The notes beneath the pieces are model-generated. The model had not been told where the DNA came from and did not search any database. It saw only the letters and a program-made list of their open reading frames with translations. The position numbers were made by a program, and so were the translations under genes. Shown here piece after piece: positions 51,514 to 60,835 of a stretch of 64,000 nucleotides of DNA. The DNA is from Allonocardiopsis opalescens (GTDB lineage Bacteria > Actinomycetota > Actinomycetes > Streptosporangiales > Streptosporangiaceae): assembly GCF_003002095.1 (NCBI RefSeq), contig NZ_PVZC01000004.1, forward strand, positions 1 through 64,000, in the 5' to 3' direction. The number at the start of each line of letters is the position of its first letter. Positions within the stretch are counted from its first letter, which is position 1.

Positions 51514-53070
51514 GTGCTGTCGGTTATGCGTCCCGAGAAGAACCCGTCCCGCCTGCTGTCGGACCTGGTCGACCTGCTCGGCCCGGCCGTGCTCGCCGAG
51601 TACGGCGGTCCCGTCGACGACGCCAGGGCGGTGCGCGGCATCACCCACGACTCCCGCCGGGTGAGGCCCGGCGACGTCTACCTGGCGCTGGGCGGCAGCA
51701 GGTTCCACGGGGCGGAGTTCTGCGACGCCGCCGCCGACGCCGGCGCGGTCGCCGTGCTGACCGACCCCGACGGCCACGACCGCGCCGCCAAGACCGGCCT
51801 GCCGGTGATCGTGGTGGCCGACCCGCGCCGGCACATGGGCCGGGTCGCCTCCTGGATCTACGACGACCCCGTCTCCGAGCTGAACCTGATCGGGATCACC
51901 GGCACCAGCGGGAAGACCACCGTCGCCTACCTGGTCGAGGCCGGGCTGCGCGCCGCCGGGCTCACCACCGGGCTGGTCGGCACGGTCGAGATCCGGGTCG
52001 GCGACGAGCGGGTCGACTCCTCGCTCACCACCCCCGAGGCCACCGACCTGCACGCCCTGTTCGCGCTGATGCGCGAGCGCGGCGTGTCGGCGGCTGCGAT
52101 GGAGGTCTCCAGCCACGCGCTGGCCCTGGACCGCGTCTCCGGCGCCCGCTACGAGGTCGCGGTCTTCACCAACCTCTCCCAGGACCACCTGGACTTCCAC
52201 GCCGACCTGCGCGAGTACTTCGACACCAAGGCGCGGCTGTTCACCTCGGAGTTCAGCCGCATCGCCGTGGTCAACCTCGACGACCGCTTCGGCCGCGCGC
52301 TCGTCGACAAGGTCGCCGCCGCGGGCGAGGTGCCGCTCACCACCTTCTCCGCCGACGGCGACCCCGACGCCGACTGGCGCGCCACCGACGTGCGGCTCGG
52401 CTCCGACGGCAGCAGCTTCCGCGTGGTCGGCCCCGGCGGCATCGAGGCCGACGCCTCGGTGGCGCTGCCCGGCCCCTTCAACGTCGCCAACGCCTTGGCC
52501 GCCATCGTGGGGCTGGTCGAGGCCGGAATCGGCCTTTCCTCCGCCGTGGCGGGCGTGGCCGCCCTCACCGGCGTGCCCGGCCGGATGGAGCGGGTGGACG
52601 CCGGGCAGGACTTCACCGCCGTGGTCGACTACTCGCACAAACCCGGCGCCATCGAGGCCGTGCTGACCGCGCTGCGCCGGATCACCGCCAACCGGCTCAC
52701 CATCGTGGTGGGCTGCGGCGGCGACCGCGACCGCGCCAAACGCCCGCTGATGGGCGAGGCGGCGGCGCGGCTGGCCGACTCCGTCATCCTCACCGACGAC
52801 AACCCGCGCTCCGAGGACCCCCTGGAGATCCTGCGCGCCATGATGTCCGGTGCCGCCCAGGTGCCGCGCGAGCGGCGGGCCCGCGTCACGGTGGAGCCCG
52901 ACCGGGCCGAGGCGATCGCGCTGGCCGTGGCGCGCGCCGAGCCCGGCGACTGTATCGTCATTGCCGGGAAGGGGCACGAGGGCGGCCAGTACGTCCGCGG
53001 CGAGGTCCTGCCCTTCGACGACCGCGAGGTGCTGCGGGCCGCGTTGGAGCACCGGGCCGGCGGCGGGTGA
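51514..53070 (+). CDS. murE: UDP-MurNAc-tripeptide ligase MurE (meso-DAP-adding)
   Basis: Adds meso-diaminopimelate to UDP-MurNAc-L-Ala-D-Glu. The 518-residue protein has the N-terminal uridine-binding domain, ATP motif GTSGKTT (130-136), [13 protein letters not shown], and the DNPR motif (429-432) that selects meso-DAP over lysine. Because the kinase insertion cuts it from ftsI, it needs its own promoter; TAACCT (51502-51507) lies six bases before GTG 51514 and suggests a leaderless start (ATG 51526 is the alternative). murF does not follow it as expected. Confidence 0.97.
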
Positions 53071-53229
53071 ACCCCGCCGGGCGCCGTGGCACTGTTGTGA
53101 TCCACGGGCTCACCGGTGCCGCCGATATGCCCCGCCAGGTCGCGGTATGGTGCACTCTGCTGGCCGACGGCCCGGCTCGGACCGCCGGATACGCCGGGCC
53201 TGCTTCCAGGGCCTACCGGGGCGGCCCTC

Positions 53230-53354
53230 AAGAGCCCCACGATGTCGTCATGCTGAAGGGACCACGCGTGGCCGGTCTGCAACGGGTAGCCACTCCCCAC
53301 TTGGCGCCGAGCCGACACGATGCGGCGTCGCGGACCGGGGGGGCCGCCGCGTGA
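53230..53354 (+). pseudogene. murF: C-terminal remnant of murF
   Basis: Between murE and mraY, where actinobacteria have murF (about 1.4 kb), only 280 bases remain. The frame that ends with TGA at 53352-53354, overlapping the mraY GTG by GTGA, contains [17 protein letters not shown] (53241-53291). This closely matches the MurF C-terminal element of the type GDVVLVKGSRAxGLERV. The 160 bases before it show no recognisable MurF sequence. The conserved overlap and tail argue for deletion of an original murF; the ligase is essential, so a working copy should be elsewhere. Confidence 0.6.
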
Positions 53355-54409
53355 CCAGCATCCTGATCGCCGCGGCGGTCTCCCTGTTCGTCTCCCTGCT
53401 GGGGACACCGCTGGCCATCAAGCTGCTGCGGCGCCGTGGCTACGGCCAGCACATCCGCGAGGAGGGCCCCGAGGCGCACCTCGACAAGCGCGGCACCCCC
53501 ACCATGGGCGGCATCGTGTTCGTGGTGGGCGGCCTGGTCGGCTACGCCGTCGCGCACCTGGTCACCTGGACGCCGCCGACCGTCTCCGGCCTGCTGGTGC
53601 TCTTCCTGATGGCGGGCATGGCCGCGGTCGGCTTCCTGGACGACTTCATCAAGATCTTCAAGCAGCGCAGCCTCGGCCTGCGCAGCGGCGCCAAGATGGC
53701 CGGCCAGATCTCGGTGGGCGTGGTCTTCGCCTTCCTCGCCACCCAGTTCCCCAACGGCTACACCTACACCCCGGCCTCCACCGAGCTGTCGTTCGTGCGC
53801 GACATCGGCATCAACATCGGGCCGTGGCTGTTCATCATCTGGGCGCTGATCATGATCACCGCCACCTCCAACGCGGTGAACCTCACCGACGGCCTCGACG
53901 GCCTGGCCACCGGCGCCACCATCCTGTCGCTGGCCGCCTACGTCATCATCGGCAACTGGCAGCTGCGGCAGAGCTGCGTGGAGTTCGCGCTCGCGCCGAC
54001 CTGCTACACGGTGCGCGACCCGCTCGACCTCGCGGTGGTGGCCGCCGCCATGCTCGGCGGCTGCATCGGCTTCCTGTGGTACAACGCCCCGCCCGCCAAG
54101 ATCTTCATGGGCGACACCGGCTCCCTCGCGCTGGGCGGCGTGCTGGTCGGCCTGGCCATCACCACCCGCACCCAACTGCTGCTGCTCATCCTCGGCGGCC
54201 TGTTCATGCTGATCACCGCCTCGGTGATCATGCAGGTCGGCTCGTTCAAGCTCACCGGACGGCGGATCTTCAAGATGGCGCCGCTCCAGCACCACTTCGA
54301 GCTGATGGGCTGGGCCGAGACCACCATCGTGGTCCGCTTCTGGATCATCCAGGGCATCTTCGTGGCCATCGGCGTCGGCCTGTTCTACGTCGAATCGGTA
54401 CCCCGGTGA
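53351..54409 (+). CDS. mraY: Phospho-MurNAc-pentapeptide transferase
   Basis: Transfers phospho-MurNAc-pentapeptide to undecaprenyl phosphate to form lipid I. The 352-residue protein has ten membrane segments and catalytic motifs [41 protein letters not shown] and [15 protein letters not shown] 53351 overlaps the stop of the murF remnant and the gene overlaps murD by GTGA. Its own promoter is not obvious, so it may depend on murE transcription. Confidence 0.97.
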
Positions 54410-55815
54410 ACCAGGCGGCGGCCGACTGGTCCGGCGCCCGGGTGTGCGTGGCCGGGCTCGGCGTGTCCGGGCCGCCGGTCGCCCGCGCCCTGCTCGCCCT
54501 CGGCGCGCAGGTCACCGTGGTCGACGGCCGCGACGACGACACCAACCGCGCCCGCGCCGCCGAACTGGAGCGGCTGGGCGCGCGGGTGCTGCTCGGCTCC
54601 GCCGCCGCGTCGGCGCCGCCCGAGGGCACCGGCACCGTGGTCACCTCGCCCGGCTGGCGGCCCGACGCCCCGCTGCTGCGCGCCGCCGCCGCCGCGGGGC
54701 TGCCGGTCATCGGCGACGTCGAACTCGCCTGGCGGCTGCGCCCGTCCGGCCAGCAGTGGCTCGCCGTCACCGGCACCAACGGCAAGACGACCACCGTCAA
54801 GATGCTGGAGTCGATCCTGCTCGCCGCCGGGCGCCGCGCGCTGGCCGTCGGCAATGTCGGCACCTCGGTCGTGGAGGCCGTCACCGCCCGGCCCGGCTAC
54901 GACGTCCTCGCCGTGGAGCTGTCCAGCTTCCAGCTGCACTGGTCGAGCAGCCTGGCGCCCGACGCCGCCGCCGTCCTCAACATCGCCCCCGACCACCTCG
55001 ACTGGCACGGCGGCATGGACGCTTACGCCCAGGCCAAGGGGAAGGTCTACGCGCCCGGCACCCTCGCGGTGTACAACACCGCCGACCCCCGCACGGTCCG
55101 GCTGGCGCAGGGCGCCGAACGGCGGGTCGGCTTCGGCCTGGCGGTGCCGGCCCCCGGTGAGCTGGGCGTGGTGGAGGACCTGCTGGTGGACCGCGCCTTC
55201 GTGGCCGACCCCGCGCACGCCGCCGAACTGGCCCGGCTTGAGGACGTCCGCCCCCTCGCCCCCCACAACGTCGCCAACGCGCTGGCCGCCGCCGCGCTCG
55301 CCCGCGCCGCCGGGGTGCCGGCCGAGGCGGTCGGCGCCGGGCTGCGCGCCTTCGCGCCCGAACCGCACCGGATGGCGCCGGTCGCCACCGTCGCCGAGGT
55401 CGGCTACGTCAACGACTCCAAGGCGACCAACCCGCACGCCGCCGAGGCCGCGCTGCGCAGCTACCCCTCGGTGGTGTGGATCGCGGGCGGCCTGCTCAAG
55501 GGCGCCGATGTCGGCGAACTGGTGCGCGGCACCGCGCATCTGCTGCGCGGCGCGGTGCTGCTCGGCGCCGACCGCGCCCGCATCGCCGCCGCCCTCGCCG
55601 AGCACGCCCCCGGCGTGCCCGTGGTCGACATCGCCCGCACCGACCCCGAGGTGATGCCCGAGGTGGTGGCCGCCGCCGCCAAGCTGGCCCGGCCCGGCGA
55701 CACCGTGCTGCTGTCGCCCGCCGCCGCCTCGCTGGACATGTTCCGCGACTACCCCGCTCGCGGCGACGCCTTCGCCGCCGCCGTGCTGGCGCTGGCCGAC
55801 ACGCCGGGGGAGTAG
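54406..55815 (+). CDS. murD: UDP-MurNAc-L-alanine:D-glutamate ligase
   Basis: Adds D-glutamate to UDP-MurNAc-L-Ala. The 469-residue Mur ligase has an N-terminal Rossmann domain ([18 protein letters not shown]), ATP motif [30 protein letters not shown] with the carbamylated-Lys region nearby (AKGKVY), and the C-terminal domain with [15 protein letters not shown] and [17 protein letters not shown] 54406 overlaps the mraY stop. Confidence 0.97.
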
Positions 55816-55964
55816 CCACGGCGCGGCCGCCTCCGGCCGGTGGCCCGATCCGGCCTGCCCCCACGCCGATTTTCCGGCCAACACGCGCCGAATGTCCGAG
55901 TGCGCTGCCCCGGGCCTCGCCAGACTAGGCCGAGACGGCCCGGCCGGGGCCGGGCACGGGCGGG

Positions 55965-57335
55965 GTGAGGCTGATGGCGGTGGCGCGGGGCGACGGATAT
56001 GCCGGGTTCCCGGTGGCGCGGGGCGGCGGGCGGATCGGCCTCGCCGCACTGCCGCGCCTGCTGGACCGGCCGCTGACCTCCTACTACCTCATCCTGGGCT
56101 GCACCGCGCTGCTGGTGGCGCTCGGACTGCTGATGGTGCTGTCGGCGTCCATGATCGAGCAGCTGCGCGACACCGGCTCGCCGTACTCCCTCGTCACCAC
56201 CCAGGCCATGGCGGCCTGCATCGGGCTGCCGCTGATGCTCGTCGCCGCGCAGCTGCCGCCGCGGGCCTTCCGGCCGCTGGCCGGGCCCGCGCTGCTGGTC
56301 GCCATCCTCGCGCTGATCGCGGTGCTGTTCATCGGCGAGAGCTACAACACCGGCGCCACCCAGTGGCTGGAGATCGGCGGCATGACCGTGCAGCCGTCGG
56401 AGCCGGCCAAGTTCGCCTTCGCGCTGTGGGGCGCCAACCTGCTGGCCCGCAAGGAGGAGCTGCGGCAGCTCACCGAGTGGCGGCACCTGCTCATCCCGCT
56501 GCTGCCCGGGGCGGGCGCGGTGGTGATGCTGGTCATCCTCGGCGGCGACCTCGGCACCGCCTGCATCCTGCTGGTCATCTTCCTGGCGCTGCTGTGGGTG
56601 GTCGGCGCCCCCGCCAAGCTGTTCGTCGGCATGCTCGGCCTGGTCGGGCTGCTCGTCGGCCTGATGGTGGTGGCCGCCCCCTACCGGATGAGCCGCTTCA
56701 CCTCCTTCCTCAACCCCGAAGCCGACCCCACCGGCACCGGCTACCAGGCCGTGCGCGGCCTGTACGCGCTGGGCTCCGGCGGCCTGCTCGGCGTCGGCAT
56801 CGGCGGCAGCAGGGAGAAGTGGGGCGTCTTCCCGCACACCGAGAGCGACTTCATCTTCGCCATCATCGGCGAGGAGTTCGGCCTGCTCGGCACCCTGCTC
56901 GTCATCGGCCTGATCGGGCTGATGGGCTACGCGGGGCTGCGGGTGGCCACCCGCGCCACCGACCTGTTCACCCGGCTGGCCGCCACCGCGATCACGGCCT
57001 GGATCGTGTTCCAGGCGCTGGTCAACATCGGCGCCGTCATCAACCTGCTCCCGATCACCGGCGTCCCGCTGCCGCTCGTCTCCTACGGCGGGTCCTCGCT
57101 GGTCTCCACCATGGTGGCCGTCGGCATGCTGCTCGCCTTCGCCAAGCGCGAACCCGGTGCCCGGCAGGCATTGGCGGCTCGCGGCCCCGGACCCGCCCGG
57201 CGGGCTCTAAGCTGGCTTGGCCTGGAAGTCCGGGGAGACCGACTGGTGGTACGTCGCGAGGCCCCGGACCGGCGGCGGACGCCCGCCCCGCGCGGGCGCG
57301 CCACCCAGACTCCGAGGAGGGAACGTCGACGATGA
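55965..57335 (+). CDS. ftsW: FtsW, SEDS-family peptidoglycan polymerase
   Basis: Septal glycosyltransferase partner of FtsI. The protein of about 456 residues has roughly ten membrane segments; SEDS motifs include YNTGATQWLEIGGMTVQPSE, a large extracellular loop with DPTGTGYQAVRGLYALGSGG (catalytic Asp region), HTESDFIFAIIGEEFG and LPLVSYGGSSL. The basic C-terminal tail (about 400-456) is cytoplasmic. The start is GTG 55965 or ATG 55974; neither has a strong ribosome site. The 149-base gap after murD holds no gene. It overlaps murG by ATGA. Confidence 0.95.
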   Translation: MRLMAVARGDGYAGFPVARGGGRIGLAALPRLLDRPLTSYYLILGCTALLVALGLLMVLSASMIEQLRDTGSPYSLVTTQAMAACIGLPLMLVAAQLPPRAFRPLAGPALLVAILALIAVLFIGESYNTGATQWLEIGGMTVQPSEPAKFAFALWGANLLARKEELRQLTEWRHLLIPLLPGAGAVVMLVILGGDLGTACILLVIFLALLWVVGAPAKLFVGMLGLVGLLVGLMVVAAPYRMSRFTSFLNPEADPTGTGYQAVRGLYALGSGGLLGVGIGGSREKWGVFPHTESDFIFAIIGEEFGLLGTLLVIGLIGLMGYAGLRVATRATDLFTRLAATAITAWIVFQALVNIGAVINLLPITGVPLPLVSYGGSSLVSTMVAVGMLLAFAKREPGARQALAARGPGPARRALSWLGLEVRGDRLVVRREAPDRRRTPAPRGRATQTPRRERRR

Positions 57336-58432
57336 TGGTTGTCCTGGCCGGGGGCGGCACCGCCGGTCACATCGAGCCCGCGCTCGCCCTCGCCGACGCG
57401 CTGCGGCGGGCCGAGCCGCAGATCGGCATCACCTGCCTGGGTACCGAGCGCGGCCTTGAGACACGGCTGGTCCCGCTGCGCGGCTACGACCTCGCGATGG
57501 TGCCGGCCGTGCCGCTGCCGCGTGCGCTGACGCCCAAGCTGCTCACCGTGCCGGGCCGGCTGGCCGGCGCCATCAGCGCCGCCGCCGGGATCCTCGACCG
57601 CGTCAGGGCCGACGTCCTGGTGGGCTTCGGCGGCTACGTCGCCACCCCCGGCTACGGCGGGGCGTGGCGGCGCGGCGTGCCGATCGTGGTGCACGAGGCC
57701 AACCCCAAGGCGGGGCTGGCCAACCGGCTCGGCGCCCGGCTCACCGACCACGTCTTCACCGGCCACCCCGACGCCCAGCTGTCGGGCGGCCGCTACATCG
57801 GCATCCCCATCCGCGAGCAGATCTCGCAGCTGGACCGGCTGGCGCTCGGCGACAAGAGCCGCGCCCACTTCGGGCTCCGCGACGACCTGCCCACCCTGCT
57901 CGTCTTCGGCGGCTCGCAGGGCGCCCGCTCCATCAACCAGGCCGTCACCGACGCCCGCCCGCTGTTCCGGCAGGCGGGCGTGCAGGTGCTGCACGTGGTC
58001 GGCCCGAAGAACGCCGCCGAGCCCGAGGACCACACCGCCGACGGCGTGCCGTTCATCACCGTGCCCTACGTCGACCGCATGGACCTCGCCTACGCCGCCG
58101 CCGACATGGCGCTGTGCCGCGCGGGCGCGCTGACCTGCGCCGAGCTGGCGGCGGTGGGCCTGCCCGCCGTCTACGTGCCGCTGCCGCACGGCAACGGCGA
58201 GCAGCGCCTCAACGCCGAGCCGATCGTGTCGGCCGGCGGCGGCCTGCTGGTGGACGACTCCCAGCTGACCGCGGAGTGGATCCGCGACAACGTGCTCGGC
58301 GTGCTCACCGACACCGACCGGGTGGTCGGCATGTCCGAGGCCGCCTCCAGCACCGGCCGCCGCAACGCCGACGACGAACTCGCGCACATCGTGCTGAACG
58401 TCATCCGCGAGAAGAGGTCGGAGGGCCGGTGA
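57332..58432 (+). CDS. murG: Lipid II synthase MurG (GlcNAc transferase)
   Basis: Adds GlcNAc to lipid I to make lipid II at the inner membrane face. The 366-residue GT-B enzyme has the first glycine loop LAGGGTAGHIEPALAL, GFGGYVATPGY, VVHEANPKAGLANR, second-domain LVFGGSQGARSINQAV and the UDP-GlcNAc site CRAGALTCAELAAVGLPAVY. ATG 57332 follows GAGGAGG, coupled to the ftsW stop. Its end overlaps a small open frame that bridges to murC. Confidence 0.97.
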   Translation: MMVVLAGGGTAGHIEPALALADALRRAEPQIGITCLGTERGLETRLVPLRGYDLAMVPAVPLPRALTPKLLTVPGRLAGAISAAAGILDRVRADVLVGFGGYVATPGYGGAWRRGVPIVVHEANPKAGLANRLGARLTDHVFTGHPDAQLSGGRYIGIPIREQISQLDRLALGDKSRAHFGLRDDLPTLLVFGGSQGARSINQAVTDARPLFRQAGVQVLHVVGPKNAAEPEDHTADGVPFITVPYVDRMDLAYAAADMALCRAGALTCAELAAVGLPAVYVPLPHGNGEQRLNAEPIVSAGGGLLVDDSQLTAEWIRDNVLGVLTDTDRVVGMSEAASSTGRRNADDELAHIVLNVIREKRSEGR

Positions 58433-58632
58433 CCACCGCCACCCCATTCCCCGGTCGATCCCGCACCCGATCCCCGAGCCCATCCCCCTCCCGCCCAGGG
58501 GGGCGACCCCACATCCAGTCTCCCGCGGATCGGTGCGCCGGGGCGAGGGCCGGCGGCGGGCTGTGGACAAGCCCCGCCGTGCGGGCGGGCTTGTGGACGA
58601 ACGGGTTGACGAACGGAGGGGGACGGCGATGA
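58429..58632 (+). CDS. Possible 67-aa bridging open frame between murG and murC
   Basis: A GTG overlaps the murG stop (GTGA at 58429-58432) and the frame stops on TGA inside the murC start (ATGA at 58629-58632), exactly filling the gap. The product is Ser/Pro/Arg-rich, then has a repeated GLWTSPAVRAGLWTNGLTNG. No family is recognised. It may be a real coupling peptide or chance in high-GC DNA; the DNA also holds two DnaA-box-like 9-mers and a hairpin, so the non-coding explanation is at least as likely. Confidence 0.3.
   Translation: MTTATPFPGRSRTRSPSPSPSRPGGRPHIQSPADRCAGARAGGGLWTSPAVRAGLWTNGLTNGGGRR
58562..58600 (-). promoter_or_regulatory. Two DnaA-box-like 9-mers flanking a hairpin
   Basis: TGTGGACAA (58562-58570) is the exact complement of the actinobacterial DnaA box TTGTCCACA, and TGTGGACGA (58592-58600) differs at one position, in the same orientation 30 bases on. 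Between them CAAGCCCCGCC (58568-58578) pairs with GGCGGGCTTG (58584-58593), one base bulged. The site lies in the murG-murC gap. Confidence 0.5.
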
Positions 58633-60077
58633 GCCTGGTCGAACCGGTCGAGCCGGTGCCCGTCGAGGAGCTAGGCCGGGTCCACTTCATCGGGATCGGC
58701 GGCGCGGGCATGTCGGGCATCGCCCGGGTGCTGCTGCAGCGCGGGGTCGCGGTGTCCGGCAGCGACGCGCGCGACTCCTCCGTCCTCACCGAGCTGCGCG
58801 CGGCCGGCGCGCGGGTGCACGCCGGGCACGCCGCCGAGCAGCTGGGCGAGGCCGACACCGTGGTGGTCTCCTCGGCGGTGCGCCCGGGCAACCCCGAACT
58901 GGCCGCGGCCCGCGAGCGCGGGCTGCGGGTGCTGCCCCGCGCCGCCGCGCTGGGCGCGCTGCTGCTGGGCCGGCGCGGCATCGCGGTGGCCGGCACCCAC
59001 GGCAAGACCACCACCACCTCGATGCTCGCCACCGTGCTGCGCCACTGCGGCGCCGAGCCCGGCTACGTCATCGGCGGCAAGCTGGTCGGCGGACCCGGCG
59101 CGCCCGCCTCCGGCCTGGCCGCGGCCGCCGACGCCGGCAGCGGCGAGCTGATCGTGGTGGAGGCCGACGAGAGCGACGGCTCCTTCCTGATGCTCCGCCC
59201 CGAGATCGCCGTCGTCACCAATGTCGAGGCCGACCACCTCGACAACTACTCCGGCATCGAGCAGATCCACGAGGGCTTCGACCGCTTCACCGCGCTCACC
59301 GGCGAGCTGGTGGTGGCCGGCGTCGACGACCCCGGCGCCCAGCTGGTGGCCAAGGCCGCCGCCGAGCACGGCCGCCAGGTGCGCGGCTACGGCGAGAACC
59401 CAGGCGCCGACTACCGCATCGGCGCCATCGCCCCGGCCGGCTTCGGCTCCCGCTTCACCCTCGCCGGCCCCGCCGGGGAGCACCCCTACACGGTGCACGC
59501 GCCCGGCCGGCACAACGTCGCCAACGCCGCCGCCGCCATCGCCGTCGCCCTCGAACTCGGCTTCGCCCCCGGCGCCGCCGCCGCCGGGCTGGCCGCCTAC
59601 CGCGGCACCGCCCGCCGCTTCGAGCCCAAGGGCGAGGCGCGCGGCGTGCGCGTCTACGACAGCTACGCCCACCACCCCACCGAACTCGCCGCCGACCTGC
59701 GCGCCGCCCGCGCCGCCCTGGACTCCGAGCCGCCGCGCGGCGAGGGCGCCGCGCCCGGCCGGGTGATCGCGCTGTTCCAGCCGCACCTCTACAGCCGCAC
59801 CCGGATCTTCGCGGCCGAGTTCGGCCAGGCGCTCGGCCTCGCCGACGAGGTCGTGGTCATGTCGATCTACGCCGCCCGCGAGGATCCCGAACCCGGCGTC
59901 GGCTCCGAGCTGGTCACCTCCGCCGTCCCGCACGGCCGCGTCCACCTCCAGCCCGAGCGCGAGCGGATCCCCGCGCAGATCGCGGCGCTGGCCCGCCCCG
60001 GCGACATCGTCCTCACCATGGGCGCGGGCGACGTCACCGAGCTGGGCCCGCGCATCGTCGACGCCCTGGGATCCTGA
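58629..60077 (+). CDS. murC: UDP-MurNAc:L-alanine ligase
   Basis: First amino-acid addition of peptidoglycan precursor synthesis. The 482-residue protein has the N-terminal motif VHFIGIGGAGMSGIARVLLQ, ATP motif AGTHGKTTTTSML, EADESDGSFL, NVEADHLDNYSG, and C-terminal YDSYAHHPTELAADLRA. ATG 58629 has ACGGAGGGGGACGG upstream. Its stop overlaps the ftsQ ATG by one base. Confidence 0.97.
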   Translation: MSLVEPVEPVPVEELGRVHFIGIGGAGMSGIARVLLQRGVAVSGSDARDSSVLTELRAAGARVHAGHAAEQLGEADTVVVSSAVRPGNPELAAARERGLRVLPRAAALGALLLGRRGIAVAGTHGKTTTTSMLATVLRHCGAEPGYVIGGKLVGGPGAPASGLAAAADAGSGELIVVEADESDGSFLMLRPEIAVVTNVEADHLDNYSGIEQIHEGFDRFTALTGELVVAGVDDPGAQLVAKAAAEHGRQVRGYGENPGADYRIGAIAPAGFGSRFTLAGPAGEHPYTVHAPGRHNVANAAAAIAVALELGFAPGAAAAGLAAYRGTARRFEPKGEARGVRVYDSYAHHPTELAADLRAARAALDSEPPRGEGAAPGRVIALFQPHLYSRTRIFAAEFGQALGLADEVVVMSIYAAREDPEPGVGSELVTSAVPHGRVHLQPERERIPAQIAALARPGDIVLTMGAGDVTELGPRIVDALGS

Positions 60078-60835
60078 TGGCCGACACGCAGGCCGCGGCC
60101 CCGGCGCAGACCCCCCGGCGGGCGGACCCGTGGAAGGTCGCCTTCGTCGTCCTCCTCATCGTCGGCCTGCTCACGGTGGTCACCTGGCTGCTGCTGGGCT
60201 CCCGGCTGCTGGTGGTGCGCGAGGTGCAGGTCGAGGGCCTGAACCGGCTCGGCACCGAGGAGGTCGTGGTCGCCGCCGACGTCCCGCCGGGAACTCCGCT
60301 GGTCCGGGTCGACCTCGACGCGGTCGCCGAGCGGGTCGAGGAGCTGCGGCTGGTCGAGGAGGCCACCGTCTCGCGCAACTGGCCGGCCGCGGTCGGCATC
60401 GCGGTGATGGAGCGCACCCCGGTGCTCGCCGTGCCCGCCGACGGGCAATTCATGCTGATCGACCGCTTCGGCGTGACGGTGGAGACGGTGCCCGAGCGGC
60501 CCGCCGCCCTCCCCGAACTCGCGCTGGAGGGGGAGCCCGAGGGCCATCCGGCCGTGGCGGCGGCCGCCGCCATCGTCCGCGAACTGCCCGCGGAGGTGTC
60601 CGGACTGGTGGAGCGGATCGAGGCGGCCGACGGCGACACCGTGGTGCTGCGGCTGCGCGACGGCGCGGAGGTGGTCTGGGGCGACGCGCGCGGCGGGGCG
60701 GAGAAGGCGCGGGTGCTGATGATCCTGCTGGCGGAGCACCCACCCGCCGCGGGCCTCAGCTACGACGTGAGCGCCCCTGACGTGGCGGTCGTCGGCGGTC
60801 TCGACGGCGCCGCCACCGCGGGGCCGGCCGCCTGA
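60077..60835 (+). CDS. ftsQ: Cell division protein FtsQ
   Basis: The 252-residue bitopic protein has a short cytoplasmic tail, one membrane segment (about 20-41, VAFVVLLIVGLLTVVTWLLL), a POTRA domain starting LVVREVQVEGLNRLGTEEVV and the beta domain RNWPAAVGIAVMERTPVLAV. It bridges early and late divisome proteins (FtsL, FtsI, FtsW). It is coupled to murC (TGATG). A strong hairpin follows, separating it from ftsZ. Confidence 0.95.
   Translation: MADTQAAAPAQTPRRADPWKVAFVVLLIVGLLTVVTWLLLGSRLLVVREVQVEGLNRLGTEEVVVAADVPPGTPLVRVDLDAVAERVEELRLVEEATVSRNWPAAVGIAVMERTPVLAVPADGQFMLIDRFGVTVETVPERPAALPELALEGEPEGHPAVAAAAAIVRELPAEVSGLVERIEAADGDTVVLRLRDGAEVVWGDARGGAEKARVLMILLAEHPPAAGLSYDVSAPDVAVVGGLDGAATAGPAA

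Follow-up and report, generated by a model that had tools for sequence, protein, structure and literature searches.

A murF relic between murE and mraY in Allonocardiopsis opalescens, and two complete MurF genes of other descent elsewhere in the genome

Results

A 280-base interval with a murF relic separates murE from mraY

The window, by which we mean the whole 64,000-nucleotide stretch of Allonocardiopsis opalescens DNA that was analysed, contains a dcw cluster in which murE and mraY lie 280 bases apart. This figure, already given in the earlier note, was confirmed from the coordinates, and murE and mraY both score above their NCBIfam cut-offs. The features of the interval and of the cluster genes around it are as follows.

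51514-53070, plus strand: murE, UDP-MurNAc-tripeptide synthetase (NF001124, 621.9 bits; TIGR01085, 509.1 bits; both above cut-off), adjoining the scar upstream
53071-53233, no strand assigned: part of the gap without detectable similarity to murF or to the relatives' conserved murE-murF spacer
53241-53291, plus strand: relic of the native murF 3' end, 17 codons, recognised by profile score and DNA alignment (the DNA match spans 53234-53291)
53254-53272, plus strand: TGAAGGGACCACGCGTGGC, corresponding to TGAAGGGATCNCGNGTGGC, which is synonymously conserved in the murFs of relatives
53292-53350, plus strand: tail of the relic frame, with a run of G instead of GGAGG before mraY (by sequence comparison)
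53351-53354, plus strand: GTGA, containing the mraY start and the relic frame stop
53351-54409, plus strand: mraY, phospho-MurNAc-pentapeptide transferase (TIGR00445, 319.7 bits, cut-off 192.05)
54406-55815, plus strand: murD
55965-57335: ftsW, followed by murG
58533-60077: murC
60077-60835: ftsQ-like gene (match below cut-off)

The other cluster genes that were tested (rsmH, ftsL, a penicillin-binding transpeptidase, murD, ftsW, murG, murC and the ftsQ-like gene) were all in place, with the transpeptidase and ftsQ-like matches below the cut-offs of the models matched. An 846-residue frame at 55892-58432 was considered as a MurG fusion and discarded because the beginning of that frame runs across ftsW in a different reading frame.

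The frame 53073-53351 runs into a TGA at 53352-53354 and thereby shares a 4-base GTGA with the GTG start of mraY at 53351. It scored 18.0 bits over 22 residues against a profile of 13 dcw MurFs, compared with maxima of 7.4 bits among 9,000 Markov-shuffled frames and 6.9 bits among 3,000 residue shuffles. A broader MurF profile gave 12.4 bits against null maxima of 4.9 and 5.4. When the gap was aligned to the murE-mraY intervals of relatives, the murF end of 10 named relatives matched window DNA 53234-53291 or part of it, and this alignment exceeded all 200 shuffles in eight of them (the exceptions being L047, p = 0.05, and L048, p = 0.065). The similarity is thus significant and lies at the right place and in the right frame beside mraY, which confirms a relic of the native dcw murF. 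Profile and DNA alignment therefore uphold the claim of the earlier note that murF is missing from this cluster and has left a C-terminal scar overlapping mraY. The recognisable remnant amounts to about 19 codons, and a Pfam search of the relic frame 53073-53351 returned no family at E ≤ 1, the Mur ligase N-terminal, middle and C-terminal domains all being absent.

The flanks of the relic were also compared with those of intact murFs. The first ~150-163 bases of the gap, set against murF and the murE-murF spacer of 10 loci, gave p = 0.035 in one locus and 0.18-0.95 in the others; an origin from the spacer is not supported, since 93 of 100 shuffles matched the spacers of 29 relatives equally well. 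Downstream, 59 bases separate the end of the relic from mraY, compared with 30 in the five relatives with an alignment extending to the same base, and the GGAGG that precedes mraY in seven of nine relatives compared is absent here. The 4-base overlap of the aligned mraY start with the murF stop occurs in all 10 relatives, and in all 39 loci compared, 32 of which are distinct, murF terminates in GTGA or ATGA.

Loss of murF from this position is rare in the genomes sampled

The high conservation of the murE-murF-mraY order, which the earlier note had cited, was borne out in two samples. Among 74 named loci with both murE and mraY (80 murE loci less six without an mraY match), murF lies between the two in 71 and is missing in three (L081, L090 and L106). 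The family sample comprised 150 genomes, of which 138 had the pair on one contig, nine had matches but no such pair and three had neither match at the set limit. Within those 138, a short gap was found in the window genome only (283 bases between matches); the murE-mraY distance in the other 137 is 1,366-2,626 bases, leaving room for murF. A literature search, judged by title and start of abstract and mostly outside subscription papers, yielded no account of this murF loss.

A conserved element upstream of murF in relatives is absent from the scar

The loci of 29 relatives have a murE-murF spacer of 222-816 bases, and every one of these spacers matches one or more of the others better than 20 shuffles do (the 29 being the distinct spacers of 50-900 bases retained from up to 39 loci). 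Eleven aligned spacers share a conserved noncoding core near CCAAACATGTTCTAAGGTAGGTCCGGCAATTGCAGCCCGGC upstream of murF in Nocardiopsaceae-type genomes, a label made in this analysis that covers Nocardiopsis, Streptomonospora, Murinocardiopsis and others. The core is written ACATGTTCTAAGGTAGGTCCGGCA, for example at L203 331-348 and L041 6370-6387, and 23 of 227 loci contain an exact copy of an 18-base piece of it. The element was found neither in the scar nor, at up to three mismatches, in the window, and an 83-base composite of it gave nothing convincing in the window genome (best E 0.14). An Rfam scan of five of the relatives' loci gave no family at gathering score. The element may be a promoter for murF and the genes that follow, in which case mraY would be reached here by read-through from upstream.

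Two complete MurF genes lie elsewhere in the genome

The genome (6.97 Mb in 22 contigs, 98.1% complete) was searched for MurF, as the earlier note had proposed, and two complete copies scored above the TIGR01143 cut-off of 288.6 bits: one on contig 2 (C2:678224-679621, 465 codons plus stop, 395.9 bits) and one on contig 4 (C4:574875-576263, 402.8 bits), hereafter C2 and C4. For the D-Ala-D-Ala ligase, which the same note had named as a partner to look for, one match in the genome clears the cut-off of 245.65 (350.5 bits), and two others score less (241 and 215.9 bits). The near-invariant columns of 39 dcw MurFs are kept by C2 at 113 and by C4 at 109 of 116 positions, and each copy aligns over nearly its whole length with the solved MurF structure 1gg4, which we take to be that of Escherichia coli. 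Both copies are still members of the MurF family, so that the displacement would have been by a same-family paralogue or xenologue and not by an unrelated ligase; the earlier note had named a non-orthologous ligase among its options.

The third-position GC content (GC3) of C2 is 0.963 and that of C4 0.875, compared with 0.97-0.98 in murE, mraY and murD. Given its nearly full conservation, native-like codon usage and the GGAGG before its GTG start, C2 is the likeliest working MurF, as far as sequence features can indicate. Beside C4 lie genes for a Tn3-family transposase, a threonylcarbamoyladenylate synthase and a TerC/Alx protein, all with matches above cut-off. Just downstream of the C2 gene (L039 8758-8965), a few 24-30-base repeats with 61-base spacing resemble a small CRISPR array.

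The same search bears on whether murF might in fact be present between murE and mraY and have been lost in assembly. The assembly is a draft, which would allow for such a collapse; nevertheless, the junction is not flush, as the relatives' spacer is absent from it, and the longer distance from relic to mraY and the missing GGAGG are also at odds with a simple collapse. Beyond C2 and C4, the next four matches to the MurF profile in the genome are the window's murC (85.9 bits), murE, murD and again murE, followed by one further weak match on contig 8 (30.9 bits); short fragments could escape this search. The upstream element, too, has no convincing match in the genome. Taken together, these points argue indirectly against an assembly collapse, which we consider very improbable.

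C2 and C4 fall outside the native dcw murF clade

We inferred a maximum-likelihood tree for 46 MurFs chosen by hand, consisting of 39 dcw and seven non-dcw sequences, C2 and C4 included. The 13 Nocardiopsaceae-type dcw murFs formed one clade (100/99), and a split separated the seven non-dcw from the 39 dcw MurFs (99/98). In approximately unbiased (AU) tests, run after the tree was seen, forcing C2 into the native dcw clade was rejected (p = 4.93e-5), as was forcing in C4 together with its twin from genome G007 (p = 0.0015). Pairwise identities point the same way: between C2 and the 13 Nocardiopsaceae-type dcw MurFs they are 52-57%, while 12 of these share 67-78% identity with the thirteenth, L061. 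These results weigh against the idea that the native murF simply moved to contig 2 or contig 4. Both loci do encode a complete MurF, as a relocation would demand, but the low identity of C2 to the native type and the AU rejections for both copies leave it with almost no credibility. Consequently, of the earlier proposal that murF was deleted after a functional copy arose or moved elsewhere, the first part agrees with the two full MurFs found, whereas the move is disfavoured by the position of both outside the native clade.

Within the seven non-dcw MurFs the internal order is weak (68/66), two branches are long, and C4 and its twin are unusual in composition; in view of these features, C2 may be either a xenologue or an old paralogue. 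A quick tree was built from the 119 of 168 loci with a usable MurF (at least 400 residues, no stops) plus C2 and C4, giving 117 distinct rows. There, C2 and C4 grouped with L031, L123 and L127 (SH-aLRT 97), adjoining the dcw MurFs of Actinospicaceae and Streptomycetaceae (84, 94), a neighbourhood that the 46-row tree leaves without resolution. The best matches of C2 among 296 genomes of the class were MurFs of genus g85 (60-64%), and those g85 MurFs placed in the quick tree are dcw MurFs sitting with named Streptomyces.

With a MurF of G007, a genome of another genus (inferred to be Murinocardiopsis flavida) that retains a MurF between its own murE and mraY, C4 shares 94.8% identity. Two long stretches of the C4 region (L038 8215-11276 and 11562-18310) share 92-93% DNA identity with G007, and C4 looks like a later arrival. 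The region as a whole (L038 8215-18310; L198) is an island-like stretch of about 10 kb, largely common to the two genera, with the MurF, threonylcarbamoyladenylate synthase, TerC/Alx and other genes and an adjoining Tn3-family transposase. Close plasmid kin were sought for both copies and rejected: all 95 records matching C4 were below 60% identity, and three of the 109 records for C2 fell in the 60-80% band, with 61.2% among the matches listed.

The relic coincides with a synonymously conserved stretch of murF

In 32 distinct murFs of relatives, the stretch corresponding to the relic reads near TGAAGGGATCNCGNGTGGC. All 32 rows encode its glycine by GGA, although GGA makes up 14% of glycine codons. 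Across 25 thinned rows in 11-column windows, synonymous conservation of the stretch was 0.329, the next internal value being 0.303, and none of the 346 other internal windows was as high. These observations, together with the relic frame's termination, which still forms the mraY overlap, would fit a cis-element or leader frame for mraY expression in the murF 3' end, with the remnant selectively kept through the deletion. Put more specifically, the murF 3' end of this group would carry a DNA or RNA element (TGAAGGGATCNCGNGTGGC) serving mraY and later genes, and the deletion would have spared that element alone. If so, a control sequence of a cell-wall and division operon would have been hidden inside the preceding gene and would have outlived it.

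Several findings run counter to this proposal. The lead in conservation is small, and it is exceeded at the start of murF, whose first codons reach 0.345; the window reads GACC where relatives read GATC; GGC is commoner elsewhere in the sample, where GGA occurs too; and the distance from the conserved stretch to mraY is not constant (62-104 bases in 30 rows, 95 here). Neither a sigma-70 promoter nor a terminator was found in 52900-53500. Moreover, a recent deletion alone would give the same picture. A comparison by eye of the relic with L019 shows 6 differences in 51 bases, little above those among intact copies, and recent loss and retained function fit this equally well. GC3 of the relic (0.65) is below that of each of 1288 windows in murE, mraY and murD. 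We dropped this as a sign of decay, since GC3 at these codons is 0.65-0.94 in 10 intact relatives; with intact copies sharing the low value, it cannot separate a control element from a recent deletion. Two readings of the remnant thus stand side by side, a control element and the leftover end of a recent deletion; the latter is simpler, and we regard selective retention as unlikely. The nucleoid protein Gbn, which is reported to bind GATC with a consensus of GATC followed by (A/T)T (PMC9239103), was considered as a reader of the TGAAGGGATCNCGNGTGGC motif and dismissed: its consensus is unlike GATCNCG, and the window lacks GATC at the motif.

Discussion

We consider it most probable (roughly 0.85) that a deletion removed the native dcw murF except for its last ~19 codons and the overlap with mraY, and that the loss was tolerated because the genome already had a complete stand-alone MurF of other descent. 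A plausible course of events starts with at least one complete MurF of different descent already in the genome. Deletion of the native gene from the dcw site would then have left the remnant seen today, and the contig-2 MurF would have taken over the function. The C4 copy may have arrived later, in DNA common to another genus. The conserved element before murF in relatives was presumably lost along with the gene, and mraY would now be expressed via read-through from upstream.

In xenologous or non-orthologous gene displacement, a resident gene is lost and an equivalent of other descent is present. The present case resembles this in that the resident murF is gone while such an equivalent exists; it differs in that the replacement comes from the same family and that two candidates are present. 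It is thus most simply read as the displacement of one gene by another of its family, with a scar that can still be recognised, and not as a novel type of system. Departures from the dcw cluster have been described, with murA having left it in some ancestors and murC, murB and ddlB often lying outside (PMC8871954). Like the cases described there, a cell-wall gene exits the cluster and persists elsewhere; unlike them, the gene is murF, a single lineage is affected, a MurF of another lineage would provide the function, and the site still bears a relic. This natural loss shows that murF need not keep its place in the cluster if the genome has another MurF. Stand-alone copies, of which one lies in DNA common to two genera, may assume an essential step of cell-wall synthesis. 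It also provides material for testing whether the cluster position or the coupling to mraY matters.

The three named loci without murF offer parallels. As in the window genome, the two Frankiales metagenome-assembled genomes RYN_161 (L081) and RYN_139 (L106) and Nocardioides sp. SR21 (L090) have murE beside mraY, no full murF between them and a MurF or MurF-like ligase elsewhere, which suggests that the route of murF displacement is repeatable. The content of the gap differs. In SR21 only ~104 bases separate murE from mraY, unlike the 280 bases with a relic in the window genome; one MurF above cut-off lies at another site, with a Ddl-like frame (by eye) after it. The Frankiales genomes carry, in place of murF and in contrast to the 17-codon relic, a small Mur ligase C-domain frame of 126 residues in L081 (5955-6335) and 123 residues in L106 (1273-1644). 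The two frames are 75% identical to each other and overlap murE and mraY by four bases each. Their matches to Pfam Mur_ligase_C are weak, at 22.6 and 24.1 bits against a cut-off of 28.4. A 19.0-bit MurF match at G423:C8:28371-28616, on a contig with murE and murD matches, is probably the L081 frame. The other MurF-like gene of these genomes adjoins a Ddl-like frame (by eye; L180, L181) and, at 179-183 bits, does not reach the MurF cut-off. As a separate observation, the Frankiales frames are stand-alone open reading frames for the third Mur ligase domain without the other two, and may have a function of their own.
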